A stretch of DNA of 35,327 bases from a virus: IMG/VR virus record IMGVR_UViG_3300030085_000965, positions 1 through 35,327 of that record; one strand, given 5' to 3'. Numbering within the stretch: the first letter of the stretch is position 1; every line of letters begins with the position of its first letter. Below the pieces are notes generated by a model. The model searched no databases and was not told where the DNA came from. It saw only the letters and a list, made by a program, of their open reading frames with translations. Positions 26,236 to 34,139 of the stretch are shown here, in pieces. The translations under genes and the position numbers were made by a program.

Positions 26236-26991
26236 CTAGATTACGCGAGTCTTCTCGTGACCGACTCGGATAGTTGGATCACACCAGATCTCGAATCCAG
26301 CTTTGATAGCGTCGAGACAGAATGAGACATCTTCACCACACATATCCTGAACTTCGCCAGAATCAAAGACTTGCATCTTAGGTGCGAACCAAGGATACTT
26401 CATCTCAGTGTGCTCGAAGACACCTTTCTTAATAAGAACCCATCCGAAACCAATATAATCGACCGTGAATGGTTTCTTACGCTTCTGGATGCCATCAACC
26501 ATTTCGTGGTTCATAACACCACCATTGGATTTGAAGTCACCTTCTTCGAGCCAGTGTGCCACTGAGGTGGTCCTACCGTCCTCTGTACAGTACCAACCGG
26601 AAGCAATGTCCCTATCCATCCAAACAAGCTTGTAGAACGCTTCTAGGTTGAATACGATGTCACTGTCGATCCATAGTTGATAGTCATACTCCAGTTTGCC
26701 GTCCCAAGGAAGTTGATCGGGACCACGTAGTACGTTTGCACCAAGGCACTTGCAACGTGCAAAGTTAACCATGGAGGAGTAGTCTTGTGAGATCTGGATG
26801 CTGGCACCAGATTGCACCAGATCAAAACAAAGTTGTACGAAGTTCTTTAGGAAGGTATATGAGACTCCACGACCAGGCAGACAGAATACGACACTCTTGC
26901 CTTTGATAAGTTCTTTTGCTTTTTCGATACTAAAAGCGTCCGGTGCTTCACCGGACGGAGGTTGGGTCACAACCTTAAAACCTTTTGCCAT
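26236..26991 (-). CDS. Glycosyltransferase-like protein, GT-A fold
   Basis: The product has 251 residues. A Rossmann-type start (KSVVFCLPGRGVSYTFLKNF, residues 32-51) is followed by LWIDSDIVF with a DSD metal-binding motif (109-111). Next come GFGWVLIKKGVF (181-192), GEDVSFCLDAIKAGF (219-233) and a final WCDPTIRVGHEK with a candidate metal-ligand His at 245. This order (DXD, then GED, then a late His) is typical of GT-A glycosyltransferases of the Anp1/GT2-like group. The donor and acceptor sugars are unknown. It is the third enzyme of the accessory chain, after the carbamoyltransferase and the radical-SAM gene, and could modify a virion or host-surface glycan. No signal peptide or membrane segment is visible. 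There is no clear Shine-Dalgarno sequence before the ATG. Confidence 0.8.
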   Translation of the reverse strand: MAKGFKVVTQPPSGEAPDAFSIEKAKELIKGKSVVFCLPGRGVSYTFLKNFVQLCFDLVQSGASIQISQDYSSMVNFARCKCLGANVLRGPDQLPWDGKLEYDYQLWIDSDIVFNLEAFYKLVWMDRDIASGWYCTEDGRTTSVAHWLEEGDFKSNGGVMNHEMVDGIQKRKKPFTVDYIGFGWVLIKKGVFEHTEMKYPWFAPKMQVFDSGEVQDMCGEDVSFCLDAIKAGFEIWCDPTIRVGHEKTRVI

Positions 26992-27020
26992 AAATGTAGT
27001 TCAAATTGTTTTCGAAAACA

Positions 27021-27035
27021 ACGGGTCATGCCCGT
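27021..27035 (-). other. Short hairpin in the leader of the glycosyltransferase
   Basis: The bases ACGGG and CCCGT flank a five-base loop, followed on the minus strand by TGTTTT and then a 16-base AT-rich palindrome around TTTTCGAAAA (27006-27020). It could be a weak terminator after the radical-SAM gene. Because a late-type motif lies upstream at 27052, it could instead be a leader structure affecting glycosyltransferase translation. Confidence 0.35.
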
Positions 27036-27051
27036 ATACATGATACCACGA

Positions 27052-27059
27052 TATTTAGT
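27052..27059 (-). promoter_or_regulatory. Late-promoter-like ACTAAATA overlapping a stop codon
   Basis: The minus strand reads TAC TAA ATA at the end of the radical-SAM gene, giving ACTAAATA. It lies 60 nt before the glycosyltransferase start, farther than the other copies. Confidence 0.4.
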
Positions 27060-28338
27060 ATCCTGCAAGTTCAGGGAATACTGCTCTCCAGTTGGTACCA
27101 CGGGATTCGTCTAGTTCATCCATATACTTTAACGCCAGTCGGAACATCTTTTCATCCCTAGGGCGCAGCATGTCAACATAGACACTTTCACTGACTGATC
27201 TTACATCATCAGCGATCTCTTTTTTGATTTCATCTGGAAGGTGATTTGGTTTTAAGAACTTGGGGTCCTCAATCTTATTGTAGACCTGGAAAGGTCTCTT
27301 TTTCAAACCACACTCTTCAAAGAACTGGAAGACTTCTTTGATCTTGTAGATGCTGAATAGTGATGGGGTATAAGTGGCATCAATAAACCCATTACCATTC
27401 GCTGCAAAGTAATCCTGAACATCATTGACGTGTTCGAGCACCGTGTCCCAGTGAGTTGGATATCTCAGATAATGATTTCTCTCATCCATACCATCACAAC
27501 TCCAATGAACACTAGTCCATCGGAAAGCATCAAGATACTTCTTCATCTGCTTCATATGGAAGACAGTCATGTTGGAGACGTATGTAAGTTCAATCTCCTT
27601 TGAGTGTCCTGATTCTATGATCCTATCAAGAAGAATAAAATGACTCTTCATCAGCATAGGTTCACCACCACAAAGCATGATGGATTTTACTCTGCCGATA
27701 TTCTTGATAACATCATTGACAACCGCATCGAACTGATCCTTATCAATCTGCTTTAGATTGTTGGACGGATATTCGACATTCCAAAGAAACTCTTTGAACT
27801 CTGGGTTCTTTGCTTCTAACTCATCTACACGCTTCTTACGAACAGTGGAGTCAAATGGTTTGCAACCATAACATTCTAGGTTACATGCGTTACCATAGAT
27901 GTTCAACTCCAACTGGATATGGCGTCCATAATCTCTAGGATCTACCAACTCCAACTCTCCTGCTGGTGGAGGTCCAATATATGCACCCTCTACGTCAAAG
28001 TTCTTGAGAACATTGCGATCAACCGGTGCCATTAGACGTGGAGACTCTGCACCTTCGCGCTCCCACTTAAGACATATCTTACATGATCTATGCATGAGAA
28101 GAGATTTCTCATTGTTTAGCATATTACTGCGGACTCTTACCGCATGATCATTATCGTAATACTCAAAAGGTAACGTATTTGTAGGATTCTCAAATCTATT
28201 TGGATTAAACCAGCAGCATGGAGCGTATCCAGACTGCATCGAGTTTCTTATATTACCGAAAGCGTACGGGCAAAAACTTCCTTCGCGCTGTTTTTCTACT
28301 AACTGATCGATAAAAGCGTCATCAATACGCTTAGCCAT
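27055..28338 (-). CDS. Radical-SAM enzyme with N-terminal twitch-type cysteines (A)
   Basis: The product has 427 residues. The canonical CX3CX2C motif lies in ACNLECYGC (C152, C156, C159) and binds the 4Fe-4S cluster that cleaves S-adenosylmethionine. CGGEP (223-227) is the usual SAM-binding strand. Before it are extra cysteines in the order CPYAF (C23), PCC (C41, C42) and CKIC (C86, C89), the layout of the N-terminal twitch/SPASM-like auxiliary cluster. Enzymes of this group usually modify peptides or small metabolites; the substrate here is not known. The gene follows the carbamoyltransferase after 23 nt, with TCTAAATA in between, and precedes the glycosyltransferase. It shares the whole cysteine plan with the plus-strand gene at 32347-33540. 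All key residues are present, so an active enzyme is likely. Confidence 0.85.
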   Translation of the reverse strand: MAKRIDDAFIDQLVEKQREGSFCPYAFGNIRNSMQSGYAPCCWFNPNRFENPTNTLPFEYYDNDHAVRVRSNMLNNEKSLLMHRSCKICLKWEREGAESPRLMAPVDRNVLKNFDVEGAYIGPPPAGELELVDPRDYGRHIQLELNIYGNACNLECYGCKPFDSTVRKKRVDELEAKNPEFKEFLWNVEYPSNNLKQIDKDQFDAVVNDVIKNIGRVKSIMLCGGEPMLMKSHFILLDRIIESGHSKEIELTYVSNMTVFHMKQMKKYLDAFRWTSVHWSCDGMDERNHYLRYPTHWDTVLEHVNDVQDYFAANGNGFIDATYTPSLFSIYKIKEVFQFFEECGLKKRPFQVYNKIEDPKFLKPNHLPDEIKKEIADDVRSVSESVYVDMLRPRDEKMFRLALKYMDELDESRGTNWRAVFPELAGY

Positions 28339-28358
28339 GATAAACTAACGATACGACT

Positions 28359-28366
28359 TATTTAGA
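28359..28366 (-). promoter_or_regulatory. Late-promoter-like TCTAAATA overlapping a stop codon
   Basis: The minus strand reads CTC TAA ATA: the TAA is the stop of the carbamoyltransferase. The motif ends 20 nt before the radical-SAM ATG at 28338, the usual distance in this window. Confidence 0.5.
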
Positions 28367-29750
28367 GTACGACTACACCATAGATTTGGGCAAACTCAAG
28401 TGCCTCATCCCAGGTGTTAACCATAGGTTGTCCGCGTACATTTAGGGATGTATTCAGTAATACTGGACATCCGGTGCGTTCAAACCAACATTCAAGGATC
28501 TGTCTAATAATACTTTGCGAGTCTTTAGGAACTGTTTGTACTCTAGCAGATCCATCAGCGTGAATGCAAGCAGGAATCTTGTCAGGTTTCTTACACTGAT
28601 AGACATATGACATATATCTAGATTCCTTTTTCGGCATATCGAACCACTGTTGAGCGTGCTCTTCCAATATGACAGGAGCAAATGGACGAAACTTCTGACG
28701 ACGCTTGATCTCATTGACTCGATCCTTCATTTCTAGGGTGCTAGGATCCGCTAGAAGACTCCTATTACCTAGTGCACGGGGACCAAACTCGGCACGTCCA
28801 TTAGCAACGCCACAGAGTCCATCTCGAAGGAGTAGATCAACCACTTGCTTTGGATCGATCTTGTGATAGATCATGTTTCCAAGGTATGGACTGAACGGAA
28901 CTTTACCTCCGTAGGATAGTAGAGCAGCACCTAACGCACCACCAGCGTCACCTGGATTGGGCATGATCCACATATTGGGATGGTCTGCCTGCAGTTTGGC
29001 GTTTACTACACAGTTTAATGCGACACCACCGCCATAACAGATGTTATCACTGTACTTTCTTGCGATCTTAAAGATATCAGAAAGGACTTCGTACAGCACA
29101 TGCTCCGCAGATTTAGCGATATTCTCCTTAGATCCCGCCAAATGAATGGGAATACCCTTATGGTTATTCATAGAGAGCAGAGTTCGCGCTCTGTTCTTAT
29201 AAATCGGCGATCCGTACGCACCCATCCCCATAAAGATGTACTCTTCGTCTAAGGGTCTTAGACCTGCCCACTTTGTAAGAGCAGAGTACCACAGTCCAAT
29301 GGAGTATGGATAACGCTTGGAAAACTTCTTTTTGTACCTAGCACGCCCATTCACCATCTCTGCTTTCCAGACAGAAACGGTATCCCATTCGCCAATGGAG
29401 TCTACGACAACACAGGCAGCCTCAGAATAAGGTCCTGTCTGAAATGCTGCAGCAGCATGGGAAAGATGATGTGAATGATACGCAGTAGGTTCTAATGCTA
29501 GGTGACGACGACCAAAGGCATGTTTGAACTGTCCTGCAAATAACTGACGTGTCCTCTTATAAAATGGACGTTCATAGAATGCTGTGATGTCATCCTCATT
29601 CGCACAACATGCTAAGAATGTTGCTACACCATCAAGATCTTTGTCATGCTTCAGTCTAGAGTATCGCTCTGAATGAGTAGCAAACTTGATTTGCCCGTCT
29701 ACTACAACAGCAACAGCAGCATCGTGAAATCCTTCACTGAAACCAATCAT
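28362..29750 (-). CDS. NodU/TobZ-family O-carbamoyltransferase
   Basis: The product has 462 residues. Family members transfer a carbamoyl group from carbamoyl phosphate, through an adenylate, to a hydroxyl of a sugar or antibiotic. The ASKHA-fold signatures are all visible: an N-terminal GFHDAAVAVVVDG; HHLSHAAAAF (residues 94-103) with the HxxxH metal pair H94/H98; VVVDSIGEWDT with D117; GGGVALNCVVNAKL (240-253); PGDAGGALGAA with D268; and EFGPRALGNRSLLADP (321-336). The C-terminal half adds RQKFRPFAPVIL and LLNTSLNVRGQPMV. The length is somewhat short for the family (often 550-600). The ATG overlaps the stop of the third SGNH-like gene as ATGA, so the two are translated together, which points to a shared job. 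The acceptor is unknown; a surface or virion glycan is a guess. Confidence 0.92.
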   Translation of the reverse strand: MIGFSEGFHDAAVAVVVDGQIKFATHSERYSRLKHDKDLDGVATFLACCANEDDITAFYERPFYKRTRQLFAGQFKHAFGRRHLALEPTAYHSHHLSHAAAAFQTGPYSEAACVVVDSIGEWDTVSVWKAEMVNGRARYKKKFSKRYPYSIGLWYSALTKWAGLRPLDEEYIFMGMGAYGSPIYKNRARTLLSMNNHKGIPIHLAGSKENIAKSAEHVLYEVLSDIFKIARKYSDNICYGGGVALNCVVNAKLQADHPNMWIMPNPGDAGGALGAALLSYGGKVPFSPYLGNMIYHKIDPKQVVDLLLRDGLCGVANGRAEFGPRALGNRSLLADPSTLEMKDRVNEIKRRQKFRPFAPVILEEHAQQWFDMPKKESRYMSYVYQCKKPDKIPACIHADGSARVQTVPKDSQSIIRQILECWFERTGCPVLLNTSLNVRGQPMVNTWDEALEFAQIYGVVVL

Positions 29751-30244
29751 ATCAGGTGCTGTTCAATGTAACTGATCATGGTAGATCCTATTCTCTTATT
29801 ATCAGATACGTATTCATCCCATTCCGTGTTAGTGACGTTAATCCAAGGAATGGAATGTTTAGTTACGTTTTGGATAGAATCCTGATCATCCATAGGGCAA
29901 GCAACTGCCATACACCTATTGAAGTCAATCTGATCGCAATGATCATCAAAGGATTTAAGTTCACTAAGGAGGAAGAACCATTCGACACCCTTAGATTCGA
30001 ACCATGTCTTGGCGTATGCAAGAGATAACCAATCTTGCCCATCATCCATGATGATAACAAGAGAATGCTTACGCTCTTTATACTTGGCGAATGAATCTTC
30101 CATCCACCTACCACTATGTGGGACTATATCAGCATATGCATTAAAATGCTCTGATACATGATGAGTGTAATGATCTGTTCGACCATACACATTGTTGAAT
30201 CGTTTTACCCCACAGAATAAAATCGAATCAATCTTCGTTTTCAT
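29747..30244 (-). CDS. SGNH-hydrolase-like protein without the nucleophile serine (third paralogue)
   Basis: The product has 165 residues. Its start SILFCG..VYG and the stretch YTHHVSEHFNAYADIVPHSG line up with ILFSGCSNTWG and YSYHVAKHFNAEEINVSDCG of the first SGNH-like protein (31568-32302). Where the paralogues have GCS with the nucleophile, this one reads GVKRFNNVYG, so the serine is gone. It is also 80-90 residues shorter, and the HPN or HLN block before the C-terminus is replaced by SDNKRIGS. I infer a non-catalytic paralogue. The 4-base ATGA overlap with the carbamoyltransferase suggests a partner or binding subunit. Its start overlaps the 33-residue gene by 17 nt. The gene is certainly real; the family assignment is moderate. 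Confidence 0.62.
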   Translation of the reverse strand: MKTKIDSILFCGVKRFNNVYGRTDHYTHHVSEHFNAYADIVPHSGRWMEDSFAKYKERKHSLVIIMDDGQDWLSLAYAKTWFESKGVEWFFLLSELKSFDDHCDQIDFNRCMAVACPMDDQDSIQNVTKHSIPWINVTNTEWDEYVSDNKRIGSTMISYIEQHLI

Positions 30245-30329
30245 AAATGAATGGATCTTGTTTACGAAGTTTTCTCAACTTAAACCAAATCCTAATGTTT
30301 CTAGGAATATTACGAATATACTTAATCAT
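30228..30329 (-). CDS. Tiny basic protein (33 aa), unknown function
   Basis: The frame encodes MIKYIRNIPRNIRIWFKLRK and continues to FIYENED. The first 24 residues are an amphipathic basic helix with spaced I/W/F residues, suggesting contact with membrane or nucleic acid. It overlaps the preceding 55-residue gene by 8 nt (its ATG lies just before that gene's TAA) and the next gene by 17 nt. This interlocking, and its residue pattern, argue for a real gene despite the length. No promoter of its own is seen. Confidence 0.55.
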   Translation of the reverse strand: MIKYIRNIPRNIRIWFKLRKLRKQDPFIYENED

Positions 30330-30489
30330 TCTTCGGTTTGATCTCGATTACTTTTACTTGCTCCTCAGTGTAGGAACTGGGGACACCAGCACGGATCATT
30401 TGCTGGAGGATCATTTGTTTATGTTCCGCTTCTTCTTTGGAGATGTTTTCAAAAGCGGGTTTTTTGTCAAGATAAACGCTGAAAGCCAT
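30322..30489 (-). CDS. Small protein (55 aa), unknown function
   Basis: The frame encodes MAFSVYLDKKPAFENISKEE, followed by a helical, glutamine-rich middle (HKQMILQQMIRAG), then YTEEQVKVIEIKPKND. The sequence reads as a normal soluble protein. Its 5' end overlaps the last 23 nt of the second SGNH gene in another frame. A good late-type octamer AATAAATA lies 21 nt upstream, inside that gene, so this small gene has its own probable promoter. Function is unknown. Confidence 0.68.
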   Translation of the reverse strand: MAFSVYLDKKPAFENISKEEAEHKQMILQQMIRAGVPSSYTEEQVKVIEIKPKND

Positions 30490-31225
30490 GAGTATAGAAA
30501 TGCTCGATACTATTTATTAGATACTTGGAGACCTTTTCGTGACCTAGTTCATTCAGATGATTACCACGGGTAACTCCTTTGACTTTAGGTACAGTATACT
30601 TCGAATGTAACCGTAATGCAAGATCTTCCTGCATTGTTTGTGAAAAGACTCTAGTTTGATCGATATAAGGATAATAGAGATCATCCTTTTGATGCGGTAT
30701 GTTGCATGTGCGAAAGAAGAAGTATTCAATACCCTTTGCACGGAACATCTCTTGAAGGAGATATGCATTCCTCCAATAGTGCATCGAAGACATTCTATCA
30801 TGATATACGTATTTGTAAAAGGCTTCCTTTGCTTCAGATAACTTCCTAGGCAGATACTCCTGCTCACTTGGCATTATATCTTCCCACCTCTTATCACTAT
30901 CATTGTATGACAGTAGTCGTGTTGAATGCGTTAACTGAACAATCGCTAGATCAACAGACTGCTGCTCAACAAAACCTACAACCTTTGCAGCAATGTGGTC
31001 ATTAGATATTCCAGGTTTAGATATGTTGTACTCTTGTGCACCATAATGATCTGCAACTAATCGTGAGTACCTATGGGATGACTGGTGCTCACCAACAACC
31101 TTTACATTATTAACCTGTTCCATACCACGGAGATGACGATGGTATGCTTCTAGATCACTACCATAAACATGAGAGCATCCACAGAATAGAATACTATTGA
31201 ATGACAGATCTTGATGCTTGTCCAT
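30467..31225 (-). CDS. SGNH-hydrolase-like protein (second paralogue)
   Basis: From the ATG at 31225 the product has 252 residues; an ATG five codons upstream (31240) is also possible. I prefer 31225 because GAGGT lies 4 nt before it. Block I is GCSHVYGSDL with nucleophile Ser18. The block II glycine is in SKPGISND (G72). VDLAIVQLTHSTR stands where block III is expected, and the C-terminal NHLNELGH gives the catalytic His223. The Asp normally three residues before this His is missing. SGNH enzymes are mostly esterases, lipases or acetyl-removing enzymes acting on glycans. The gene overlaps the HNH gene by 32 nt and the 55-residue gene by 23 nt. Substrate unknown. Confidence 0.72.
   Translation of the reverse strand: MDKHQDLSFNSILFCGCSHVYGSDLEAYHRHLRGMEQVNNVKVVGEHQSSHRYSRLVADHYGAQEYNISKPGISNDHIAAKVVGFVEQQSVDLAIVQLTHSTRLLSYNDSDKRWEDIMPSEQEYLPRKLSEAKEAFYKYVYHDRMSSMHYWRNAYLLQEMFRAKGIEYFFFRTCNIPHQKDDLYYPYIDQTRVFSQTMQEDLALRLHSKYTVPKVKGVTRGNHLNELGHEKVSKYLINSIEHFYTHGFQRLS
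30511..30518 (-). promoter_or_regulatory. Late promoter AATAAATA inside the second SGNH gene
   Basis: The minus strand reads AATAAATA, seven of eight to the T4 late consensus, located in the last codons of the SGNH gene and ending 21 nt before the ATG of the 55-residue gene. Confidence 0.6.
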
Positions 31226-31574
31226 TACGACCTCTGACATAACGTTTTCTTGTACCTTCAGTCTTCACACGTCTCCATTCTTCAATCTTGTCCCATCTGT
31301 CTTGATCAAAGAAGTATTGTTGAAAGTACCAGATCTCAACTGGTTCATGTGCTTTATCTGCATTACACCGCTGACAACAGCATAGCACATTAGTAATCTC
31401 ATCAGTCCCACCCAATGCTTGTGGTATAATATGATCTATAGTATCACCATACTCACCACAGTATGCACAGGATTCATTCCAACTTTCTTTTAAATCTTGT
31501 CGCCACATCCGAACTGCTTCAGACTTATTACATGCCTTTAGTTGATACAGATACTCGTTTGGCGAACTCAGCAT
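31194..31574 (-). CDS. HNH endonuclease, probably free-standing homing type
   Basis: The product has 126 residues. The zinc-linked HNH motif is complete: CAYCG (C36, C39), DHIIPQALGG (D47, H48), N62 and CQRCN (C67, C70) followed by K74. Such small HNH proteins nick or cut double-stranded DNA, and in T4-like phages they are often mobile. It lies between two SGNH paralogues, overlapping the first by 7 nt and the second by 32 nt or more. The overlap could mean invasion of an ancestral gene pair, or domestication. A short N-terminal helix and a basic C-terminal tail (TRKRYVRGRN) may bind DNA. Activity appears intact. Confidence 0.85.
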   Translation of the reverse strand: MLSSPNEYLYQLKACNKSEAVRMWRQDLKESWNESCAYCGEYGDTIDHIIPQALGGTDEITNVLCCCQRCNADKAHEPVEIWYFQQYFFDQDRWDKIEEWRRVKTEGTRKRYVRGRNGQASRSVIQ

Positions 31575-32302
31575 GATTCAATCTTCCCGATGATATGCTT
31601 CGCAATCTCGATATGTGCTGCTTCGTTTGGATGAGACCTTGGTTTCAACCACTTCCTCCTAAACTCTGGAGTATTGACACCTTGGTTTTCTTTCGGCAAG
31701 ATACCACCATGAATCGCTTCTGGTATCTGCTGTAAATGGTTACTGTAGATAGGACAATAGTCGATCTCATGAATCTTATTGATTGCCATGGTGATCTTAC
31801 TATGTTTATCAGGATCACAGTTATTACATGCTGATGCTGCTTTATGATGCCATTGATTATGAGAGATCGTGACATACTTAATGCCCATCTGTCTCATTAC
31901 ATTCTCCATAGCATACATCTCTAGAAACCAACGGTCACATGCTAGGGAATCATTATGAATCTCCTGAAAATAGAACTTTGCCCATGACTGATGATCATCA
32001 GGTTTGGTACTACCTTCACGGAAGTCTTGTGGTGTTAATGCTGCTAATCTTTTCTTACGAATCCGCCAGAACTCTGACCTCTGAAATGGTGGCCACTGTA
32101 TAACAACTACATCAGGTTTACCATTATACTTGATCCACTGCAATGCAAATGTAGCAACCATATGGACTGATGCGCCACAGTCGGATACATTAATCTCTTC
32201 TGCATTAAAGTGCTTTGCTACATGATAGGAATATCTTTCTGTTTCAGGATTATCTAACTCATCACCCCAGGTATTACTGCATCCAGAGAACAAGATTTTC
32301 AT
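31568..32302 (-). CDS. SGNH-hydrolase-like protein (first paralogue)
   Basis: The product has 244 residues from the ATG at 32302. An open frame reaches back to 32386, but the family begins with the strand KILFSGCSNTWG, as in the paralogues, and the longer version would run into the divergent radical-SAM gene. Block I is GCSNTWG (Ser9), the block II glycine is in SDCGAS (G43), VVVIQWPPFQR sits where block III is expected, and SHPNEAAH holds the catalytic His224. The usual Asp three residues before the His is absent, as in the second paralogue. Several extra cysteines (ACNNC) are present. It is the first gene of the leftward accessory chain, led by TCTAAATA at 32329. A hydrolase acting on an ester or acetyl group of a glycan is likely for the fold, but the substrate is unknown. 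Confidence 0.75.
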   Translation of the reverse strand: MKILFSGCSNTWGDELDNPETERYSYHVAKHFNAEEINVSDCGASVHMVATFALQWIKYNGKPDVVVIQWPPFQRSEFWRIRKKRLAALTPQDFREGSTKPDDHQSWAKFYFQEIHNDSLACDRWFLEMYAMENVMRQMGIKYVTISHNQWHHKAASACNNCDPDKHSKITMAINKIHEIDYCPIYSNHLQQIPEAIHGGILPKENQGVNTPEFRRKWLKPRSHPNEAAHIEIAKHIIGKIESC

Positions 32303-32311
32303 GCAGTGCCA

Positions 32312-32319
32312 AATAAATA
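32312..32319 (+). promoter_or_regulatory. Late promoter AATAAATA for the plus-strand radical-SAM gene
   Basis: The plus strand reads AATAAATA, seven of eight to the T4 late consensus, 27 nt before the GTG at 32347. It lies in the 44-nt gap between divergent genes. Confidence 0.55.
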
Positions 32320-32328
32320 ACCTAAGGA

Positions 32329-32336
32329 TATTTAGA
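32329..32336 (-). promoter_or_regulatory. Late-promoter-like TCTAAATA for the accessory chain
   Basis: The minus strand reads TCTAAATA, ending 26 nt before the ATG at 32302. It faces the plus-strand AATAAATA at 32312, so the two divergent late-type promoters overlap in one 44-nt gap. Confidence 0.45.
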
Positions 32337-32346
32337 TTTATACTCT

Positions 32347-33540
32347 GTGAATACGTGTACGTTCTGTCCTGCACCATGGATATCAATCTCCACAGATATT
32401 ACTGGTGAATCTCGTCCGTGCTGTAGATATGAACACACTACAGAATATAATACTGGGTATACCTATGGTATGCCTAACCTTAAAGATGGTACGATTGATG
32501 AAGTATATAACTCCCCCAAGTTTGAAGAGTTACGCGCAGCATTCCTGAGAGGTGAAAAACCCGCAGAGTGTAACGCTTGCTGGGAAGAGGAGGAAGCCGG
32601 TGTATACTCCCTACGTAGAAGATTCAATAAACGTGTAAGGATGTATGATATCGACTATAATCTAAAAGGTCCTCAGATACCTCGGATCTTTGACTTTAAG
32701 TTGTCTAATGCCTGTAACTATAGGTGTAGGATGTGTAATCCAATGACTTCTACATCTATTCAAAAAGAGATGGAGGAGCAGGGTGAGATCCAAGTAGCAT
32801 ATGATCTGATTGATAGGGAAGTTGAAACACCTGAACAGATAGAATATCGAACCTCCACTAAGATTCTTGATCTATCTCATAATCAACAGATATTCTTTGA
32901 GAAATGGTTACCACATATTCGAGAGATTGAACTTACCGGTGGGGAACCATTCATCTCTCACGAAAATCTGGAACTGATACAAATGATTTCTGAAACTCCT
33001 TTTGTTTCGGATATTACTTTATGCATTACAACCAATGGTTCAGTATATAATGAACATCTGGTTGCATCCCTTAAAAAGTTTAAACGTGTCGTTCTGGTTA
33101 TCTCCTGTGATGATATGGGAGAACGCTTGGAGTATTCTAGAGATCAATCTTCATGGGACACCGTGATCTCTAACTACCATAAGTTTAACTCACACGGCTT
33201 CGGTGAGGTTAAGTTATACTCTACCATCTCCAACTATAATGTATGGTACCAGATGGAGTTCTTAGAATACTGTAAGGCGAACAAAATAAGATTGTCTCAT
33301 GGATTCCTATGGGGACCTTCGCATCTTTGTGTACATAACATCTCCCGTAAACTAAAAGATATCATCATCGACAAATATAAAGATCATAAGAAGTTTCAAA
33401 CACTCATTAACTTTATTAATATTGATGGTCCGGACCTTACTTATAGGTTCCTCGGACATATCAAAGCATATGATATGATTCGTAACCAGGATCATGCTAA
33501 GACTTATCCAGAATATCATAAGATCTTGATGGACCTCTGA
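32347..33540 (+). CDS. Radical-SAM enzyme with N-terminal twitch-type cysteines (B)
   Basis: The product has 397 residues and starts at GTG. The family's expected N-terminal motif CTFCPAPWIS begins at residue 4, so the start is near complete even though the Shine-Dalgarno sequence (AAGGA, about 17 nt away) is poorly placed. The twitch-type cysteines are C7 (CPAPW), C25/C26 (PCC) and C75/C78 (CNACW). The radical-SAM motif is ACNYRCRMC (C123, C127, C130) and the SAM-binding TGGEP is at 197-201. The plan is the same as in the minus-strand enzyme at 27055-28338, so both probably belong to one family and may act in one pathway. It is the only convincing plus-strand gene in the window. Substrate unknown; peptide or sugar modification is usual for relatives. 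Confidence 0.87.
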   Translation: MNTCTFCPAPWISISTDITGESRPCCRYEHTTEYNTGYTYGMPNLKDGTIDEVYNSPKFEELRAAFLRGEKPAECNACWEEEEAGVYSLRRRFNKRVRMYDIDYNLKGPQIPRIFDFKLSNACNYRCRMCNPMTSTSIQKEMEEQGEIQVAYDLIDREVETPEQIEYRTSTKILDLSHNQQIFFEKWLPHIREIELTGGEPFISHENLELIQMISETPFVSDITLCITTNGSVYNEHLVASLKKFKRVVLVISCDDMGERLEYSRDQSSWDTVISNYHKFNSHGFGEVKLYSTISNYNVWYQMEFLEYCKANKIRLSHGFLWGPSHLCVHNISRKLKDIIIDKYKDHKKFQTLINFINIDGPDLTYRFLGHIKAYDMIRNQDHAKTYPEYHKILMDL

Positions 33541-33675
33541 GCGGATTTTTTACTGCGAAAAAAATTTTGATATCTCTGGGGACGGGGGAGTCGTTTATTA
33601 TATCTCTCGGTCGGTGAAACGTTTGTAGGTTAGAAAGAAGGTACTTATTAATTACGGGGGCACGCCCAGGGGGCG

Positions 33676-33705
33676 ATCATAACATAAGGACGCCAAGACT
33701 GTCAA
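33676..33705 (-). promoter_or_regulatory. Sigma70-type promoter, leftward (TTGACA-N18-TATGAT)
   Basis: On the minus strand, TTGACA (33705-33700) is followed after 18 nt by TATGAT (33681-33676): a perfect -35 and a five-of-six -10. No leftward gene follows before the 3' end of the plus-strand radical-SAM gene, so any transcript would be antisense to it. Confidence 0.5.
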
Positions 33706-33709
33706 CTGC

Positions 33710-33738
33710 TTGACAACATTCACCCCCATTCTTATAAG
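33710..33738 (+). promoter_or_regulatory. Sigma70-type promoter, rightward, copy 1 (TTGACA-N17-TATAAG)
   Basis: Perfect -35 TTGACA (33710-33715), 17-nt spacer, TATAAG (33733-33738). The -35 is the right half of an inverted repeat TGTCAA-N4-TTGACA starting at 33700. Confidence 0.6.
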
Positions 33739-33758
33739 TATCACGCAGAGACTGTCAA
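33731..33758 (-). promoter_or_regulatory. Sigma70-type promoter, leftward, copy 2 (TTGACA-N16-TATAAG)
   Basis: On the minus strand, TTGACA (33758-33753) is followed after 16 nt by TATAAG (33736-33731). The palindrome CTTATAAG thus serves as -10 for both strands. Confidence 0.45.
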
Positions 33759-33767
33759 TCCCCCCGG

Positions 33768-33796
33768 TTGACAATCCCTGCGAGTTCACTTATAAT
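33768..33796 (+). promoter_or_regulatory. Consensus sigma70 promoter, rightward, copy 2 (TTGACA-N17-TATAAT)
   Basis: Both hexamers match the bacterial consensus perfectly and the spacer is 17 nt (33774-33790). Transcription would start near 33803 and run rightward, antisense to the 30-residue gene and the small-gene operon. Early promoters of T4-like phages are of this type. Confidence 0.7.
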
Positions 33797-33799
33797 GGA

Positions 33800-33892
33800 T
33801 CAAAAAAGTTCAGCAATGGCATCCAAGACGAGCATAAGATCTGCTGCTGTTTCAGTGTTGCTGAGTGCTTCAATCGCCTGCTGCTTACTCAT
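33800..33892 (-). CDS. Very small protein (30 aa), unknown function
   Basis: The frame encodes MSKQQAIEALSNTETAADLM followed by LVLDAIAELF. It is a single amphipathic helix pair with good protein-like composition. GGAG lies 5 nt before the ATG, a clear ribosome binding site, which is the main reason to accept so short a gene. Its last base adjoins the consensus rightward promoter. Similar helical mini-proteins are frequent among early genes of T4-like cyanophages. An alternative reading on the plus strand (30 residues, hydrophobic) lacks a ribosome site. Confidence 0.6.
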   Translation of the reverse strand: MSKQQAIEALSNTETAADLMLVLDAIAELF

Positions 33893-33911
33893 AATAACTC
33901 CGTGGTGATAA

Positions 33912-33941
33912 GTGTGAGAATCCTGGGAAAATGTGTGAGAA
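33912..33941. repeat. Direct repeat GTGTGAGAA, two copies 21 nt apart
   Basis: GTGTGAGAA occurs at 33912-33920 and 33933-33941, with a further TGTGAG at 33944-33949. The 21-nt period equals two turns of the helix. The repeats lie just upstream of the 30-residue gene (minus strand), where an operator would be expected. No known binding protein is suggested. Confidence 0.45.
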
Positions 33942-34062
33942 CTGTGAGTCTTATACCGAGCACGCTAAGGTAACAACGGCAGAAGACATTTAAGGACGAT
34001 TGATCACATAGGCGGTGGATGATGGACGAAAGAGAATAATAACGAACTTTTACACAATCTTA

Positions 34063-34131
34063 TCATTCACGCACAAACCTTTTATTTAACATTTCTAAAA
34101 AGGTGCGCTTTTCTGAATGTAAGTAACTCAT
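34063..34131 (-). CDS. Possible micro-protein (22 aa)
   Basis: The frame encodes MSYLHSEKRTFLEMLNKRFV plus RE and a stop. It starts 9 nt after the stop of the 63-residue gene. The composition is that of a short charged helix, but there is no strong ribosome site and the length is too small for certainty. It overlaps an AT-rich imperfect hairpin. Confidence 0.25.
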   Translation of the reverse strand: MSYLHSEKRTFLEMLNKRFVRE

Positions 34132-34139
34132 GGGTATCT

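Follow-up and report, generated by a model that had tools for sequence, protein, structure and literature searches.

A patch of four TTGACA boxes in the sequence analysed here (35,327 nt in all, hereafter the window) contains, in the interpretation that we favour, one conserved rightward sigma-70 promoter, termed P2, which would make a short non-coding RNA, and the other boxes would be recent. As a whole, this interpretation has in our estimate about an even chance of being correct, and part of its interest is that it sets one conserved promoter apart from three lineage-specific look-alikes. From the features presented below we infer that P2 is active, when it would be used, what its RNA would do and how the duplication arose. 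Unmodified host RNA polymerase would use P2 early in infection, producing a short non-coding RNA that would begin near 33803, run antisense to a 30-aa leftward ORF and head towards an A+T-rich block (block B). The three other boxes would be recent: an imperfect duplication of 53-58 bp may have produced P1 and the second TGTCAA box, and a leftward RNA would now have the second inverted pair as its 3'-end hairpin.

Location of the patch and clustering of promoter-like sites

The window is a portion of an 80.3-kb record from a T4-like cyanophage of the Kyanoviridae kind, a phage infecting ocean cyanobacteria. It encodes a gp25-like baseplate wedge (25.4 kb) and, at 34.6 kb, a Kyano_Gp96 protein. 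The patch occupies the junction between the leftward early gene cluster and the cargo-baseplate block of this phage (Table 1). Its neighbours are convergent, as noted in the preliminary description: the radical SAM gene runs rightward and ends at 33540, and on the other side are small leftward genes, namely the 30-aa ORF that ends at 33800, the next one (34331-34140) and then more. Between gp25 and the conserved element discussed below, positions 26236-33540 form a cargo block with a carbamoyltransferase, two radical SAM genes and an HNH endonuclease. The rightward cargo to the left of this element varies from phage to phage in a comparison with L192/L207, L214, L033 and L092, with sulfotransferase-like genes in relatives and radical SAM in the window, and in isolate phages leftward genes occupy this slot. 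The radical SAM protein used as a query returned no close relatives. The 30-aa ORF matched no family in Pfam or PHROG and has look-alikes in L092, L038, L229 and L230, the similarity of small leftward ORFs across loci being a judgement made by eye. An Rfam search gave nothing credible and a tRNA search found none.

Table 1. Coordinates of the features in and around the patch.
Feature	Position	Strand	Remarks
Radical SAM/SPASM gene	32347..33540	+	convergent left neighbour of the patch
Single-copy non-coding Kyanoviridae element	33584..33690	.	core TTTGTAGGTTAGAAAGAAGGTACTT at 33622-33646
Leftward promoter-like TTGACA-N18-TATGAT	33676..33705	-	11/12; TG ahead of the -10
P1, rightward promoter-like TTGACA-N17-TATAAG	33710..33738	+	11/12; window-specific among close orthologues
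Leftward promoter-like TTGACA-N16-TATAAG	33731..33758	-	11/12; within window-specific 41-nt stretch
15-bp hairpin (second inverted pair)	33744..33782	-	17 nt past the stop of the 30-aa ORF
P2, rightward sigma-70 type TTGACA-N17-TATAAT	33768..33796	+	12/12; kept in L192/L207 and L214
30-aa ORF (MSKQQAIEALSNTETAADLMLVLDAIAELF)	33800..33892	-	L092 and L038 have small leftward ORFs in the corresponding position that look similar by eye
Block C, non-coding (GTCTTATAnnGnGnnCGCTAAGGnnACAACG)	33905..33990	.	common to window, L207, L214, L229 and L230
Block B, non-coding, A+T-rich (69-71% AT)	34024..34137	.	75% identical in L192/L207; recognisable in L229/L230

All the sequence words previously reported for the patch are present where they were said to be: four TTGACA boxes, on the plus strand at 33710 and 33768 (58 nt apart) and on the minus strand at 33700-33705 and 33753-33758, two inverted TGTCAA/TTGACA pairs with gaps of 4 nt (first) and 9 nt (second), and AGACTGTCAA twice, at 33696 and 33749. 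Each copy can indeed be read as overlapping rightward and leftward promoters, giving four sites that each match at least 11 of the 12 consensus letters, the second rightward site (33768-33796) is a perfect TTGACA-N17-TATAAT as first described, and the palindrome CTTATAAG at 33731-33738 can be read as a -10 box on both strands.

This clustering of promoter-like sites is not due to chance. None of 1000 shuffles of the window reached four TTGACA within 74 bp. The 80.3-kb record has 12 sites with at least 11/12 matches to the sigma-70 consensus, where shuffles average 3.1. Four of these sites lie here inside 121 bp, two per strand, the maximum in 200 shuffles being two in 125 bp. Across the whole window, TTGACA is not over-represented (40 occurrences for 37.2 expected). 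A second cluster, located outside the window (G000:C1:42425-42824, minus strand), consists of four leftward promoter-like sites of at least 11/12. One of them, a TTGACA-N16-TATAAT, is apart from P2 the record's sole perfect site and precedes a leftward gene start by 110 nt; the cluster is probably an early promoter array.

Conservation and putative product of P2

P2, which is the sole perfect TTGACA-N17-TATAAT on the plus strand of the 80.3-kb record, has the two hexamers and an optimal spacing within the 16-18 bp expected of a sigma-70 promoter, and its predicted transcription start is at about 33803. That it is a real promoter is supported by its conservation in both sequence and place. L192, which is the same as L207, was located via a search with a neighbouring protein, a query devoid of promoter letters, and has a TTGACA-N17-TATAATG on the same strand and at the same place as P2. 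The gene to the left of this site is sulfotransferase-like and points rightward, facing the leftward genes on the other side. L214 likewise retains P2, although it was retrieved by a pattern that included promoter letters and is closely related to L207. In the three-way alignment of the window, L207 and L214 the GARTTCACTTATAATG block and the -35 box are retained, and in the P2 orthologues (window, L192/L207 and L214, i.e. few independent lineages) the -35 and -10 boxes are identical while the spacer interior varies.

None of the other promoter-like sites is conserved in this way. P1 is absent from L207 and L214, and so are the two leftward sites. Other letters stand in place of the first inverted pair, and the 41-nt stretch where the hairpin's left arm and the second TGTCAA box are located is missing from both. 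At the place of the 33676..33705 site, many relatives have instead the tail of a leftward terminator hairpin. Conservation of the boxes in relatives had been named in the preliminary description as one check on its proposal, and one box in four (P2) was kept and three were not: a promoter in the patch is supported for P2, and P1 and the two leftward sites find no counterpart in L192/L207 and L214.

A rightward promoter of at least 11/12 is uncommon at this position. Among the element-bearing loci listed it is found only in the window, L038, L091 and L092; among the relatives from the protein search, only L192 has one at the place of P2, and most of the remaining element-bearing loci have no rightward promoter at the position of the patch. 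No isolate phage was found to carry P2. The sites in L038, L091 and L092, which are distant relatives, read TTGACA-N17-TATAAC and lie at an offset similar to that of P1. A promoter role for the TTGACA of L229/L230 was rejected, since on reading the sequence the box falls within a leftward ORF of these loci.

Early use of P2 by the host enzyme would be in line with what has been reported for other cyanophages. Early genes of S-PM2 and Syn9 bear sigma-70-like motifs, and for T4-like cyanophages, which have no alt, modA, modB, motA or asi, it is assumed that the host polymerase works unmodified in early infection (PMC2984593). P2 is similar to these early promoters in its -35 and -10 hexamers and in their spacing; however, they sit upstream of early genes, whereas P2 is directed into the leftward cluster from its 3' side, with no gene of its own to transcribe. 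A convincing rightward ORF was sought after P2 in both the window and L207, and only overlapping or short ORFs were found; downstream are about 13 kb of leftward genes, and rightward genes restart only at 47.2 kb. The lack of a downstream gene on the same strand counts against a gene promoter but not against the promoter of a non-coding RNA, and since P2 has no convincing rightward ORF and faces these 13 kb of leftward genes, its predicted product is most likely a short non-coding or antisense RNA. We saw no clear intrinsic terminator for a rightward transcript. A precedent exists in CfrI of cyanophage S-PM2, a short RNA antisense to phage genes (PMC2984593), which the RNA from P2 would resemble, although the latter is a prediction and originates at a different locus, CfrI being antisense to psbA and to a homing endonuclease gene (PMC2984593). 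If P2 does make an antisense RNA, this would be a further case alongside CfrI.

The inverted pairs and the leftward hairpin

The preliminary description saw in the patch a symmetric hub, with two divergent promoter pairs and TGTCAA/TTGACA palindromes that would be bound by a regulator. Four sites of such quality, overlapping in pairs and clustered far past chance, count in favour of this proposal, as does L092, where TGTCAA...TTGACA stand back to back with much the same offset. A search of IMG/VR with a pattern combining the element with TGTCAA...TTGACA returned, besides L092, mainly unrelated phages. The symmetry is, however, not preserved in L192/L207 and L214, where three of the four boxes are missing, and the operators fare no better because both palindromes are absent from L207 and L214. 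Furthermore, the arms of the first palindrome are only 6 bp long and its folding hardly differs from that of shuffled sequences (z -0.7 to -1.2), and the second has arms of 15 nt that extend well past the hexamers, with mismatches of the G.U type, typical of RNA, on one strand. We therefore regard a hub of paired promoters and operators as improbable.

The second inverted pair is better described as a strand-biased hairpin. On the minus strand all 15 of 15 positions pair, two of them as G.U (-26.9 kcal/mol, z -7.3), and on the plus strand these two G.U become A.C mismatches (-19.3 kcal/mol). Since full 15-bp pairing occurs on the minus strand only, the structure under selection is probably in a leftward RNA, to which the hairpin would thus belong, and it is likely to be the 3'-end hairpin of the transcript of the 30-aa ORF. 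It is a stable, G+C-containing hairpin 3' of a gene, as expected of a leftward terminator, but the tail that follows its stem, UGAUACUUAUAAG, is no good U-tract (those of L092 and L038 are T-richer), so that termination at this hairpin is something we infer.

Could the patch be a terminator region and nothing else? Leftward transcripts would then have the inverted pairs as their 3' hairpins, and the resemblance to promoters would be incidental, because TTGACA and TGTCAA are reverse complementary. A leftward hairpin, often with a T-rich tail, occurs approximately 43-70 nt to the right of the core of the element in many of the relatives scanned, and in L092 and L038 hairpins with the same G.U bias as in the window, as read from their sequences, come after a small leftward ORF, all of which is consistent with such a region. 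This explanation nevertheless fails to account for the -10 boxes located at exactly N17 and for the conservation of P2 in L207/L214, which have no hairpin, and it sits uneasily with a window hairpin that is without a U-tract. We consider it just as improbable as the hub, and retain the combination of a conserved P2 with a leftward 3'-end hairpin.

A conserved element and a possible replication origin

The P2 patch adjoins a conserved element, and P2 itself is part of a conserved region without genes. Matches to the exact core of this element came from about 100 IMG/VR stretches and several isolate phages, and the form TTNTAGSTTAG was found in 10/10 isolate cyanophage genomes scanned. In the isolates inspected it is intergenic and on the early-gene side of gp25, with the exception of the S-CAM7 isolate KU686212, in which a small hypothetical gene is annotated across it; the Syn9 copy is at 53.5 kb. 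No consensus RNA structure was found on either strand in 54 diverse copies. These results draw notice to a single-copy element that is apparently unannotated and present in every isolate cyanophage genome scanned.

The leading rival to a promoter for a short non-coding RNA is that the region is an origin module, in which the RNA from P2 would form an R-loop in block B, which is A+T-rich, and prime the leading strand as in T4 oriF/oriG, or, in a variant, in which priming would occur from an early promoter as at oriE, with host DnaA participating in some relatives. T4 oriF/oriG require a promoter and a downstream A+T-rich element, and oriE consists of iterons and an early promoter (PMC3016281); in Syn9, one theta origin has been predicted (PMC2984593). 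The patch may resemble oriF/oriG/oriE in that P2 is followed, at some distance, by an A+T-rich stretch, and repeats, in the form of DnaA boxes, are present in L229/L230. A MotA box, in contrast to T4, is not expected here since cyanophages have no motA, and the distance from promoter to A+T-rich stretch is larger. A single-copy non-coding element found in all the isolate genomes scanned would suit an origin, as would the sharing of blocks B and C by the window, L207, L229 and L230. So would the exact TTTTCCACA boxes, 7 in L229 and 5 in L230, that lie in the stretch of about 270 bp separating the element from block B, where none of 500 shuffles gave more than one box. TTTTCCACA is the cyanobacterial DnaA box (PMC4674748), and these two loci are in this respect similar to the arrays of cyanobacterial oriC.

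However, such arrays are limited to L229/L230 and the window has no exact TTTTCCACA box. Block B, for which an unwinding element and the end of the rightward RNA are both candidate roles, lies about 220-330 nt downstream of the predicted P2 start, beyond the approximately 100 bp of minimal T4 origins. Skew in the 80-kb record and five isolate genomes does not put the origin at the element: in 4/5 complete genomes the GC-skew extremum is 8-14 kb away from it, in S-RSM4 the distance is about 39 kb, and third-position skew has no clean flip. An origin module is in our view unlikely, although it ranks first among the alternatives. Its most explicit form, in which the interval from the TTNTAGSTTAG element to block B is the origin of T4-like cyanophages, with P2 supplying the primer and DnaA being recruited in L229/L230 through TTTTCCACA, is very slightly less probable. 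If it were true, Kyanoviridae would gain a sequence-defined origin, and one could test directly where cyanophage replication starts.

A few minor observations concern the same interval. Block C and the stretch downstream had no match in a search of isolate phages, and block B folds slightly better on the minus strand. The DnaA-box arrays beside the element (L229:4109-4380 and L230:665-935) are intermixed with TTATAA words and origin-like in appearance, TTATAA iterons near the element being enriched only in some lineages rather than a general feature. Finally, the element is often followed by GATAAATATT on the minus strand, which resembles a T4-type late promoter, and two letters of its core covary (G..G or A..C).
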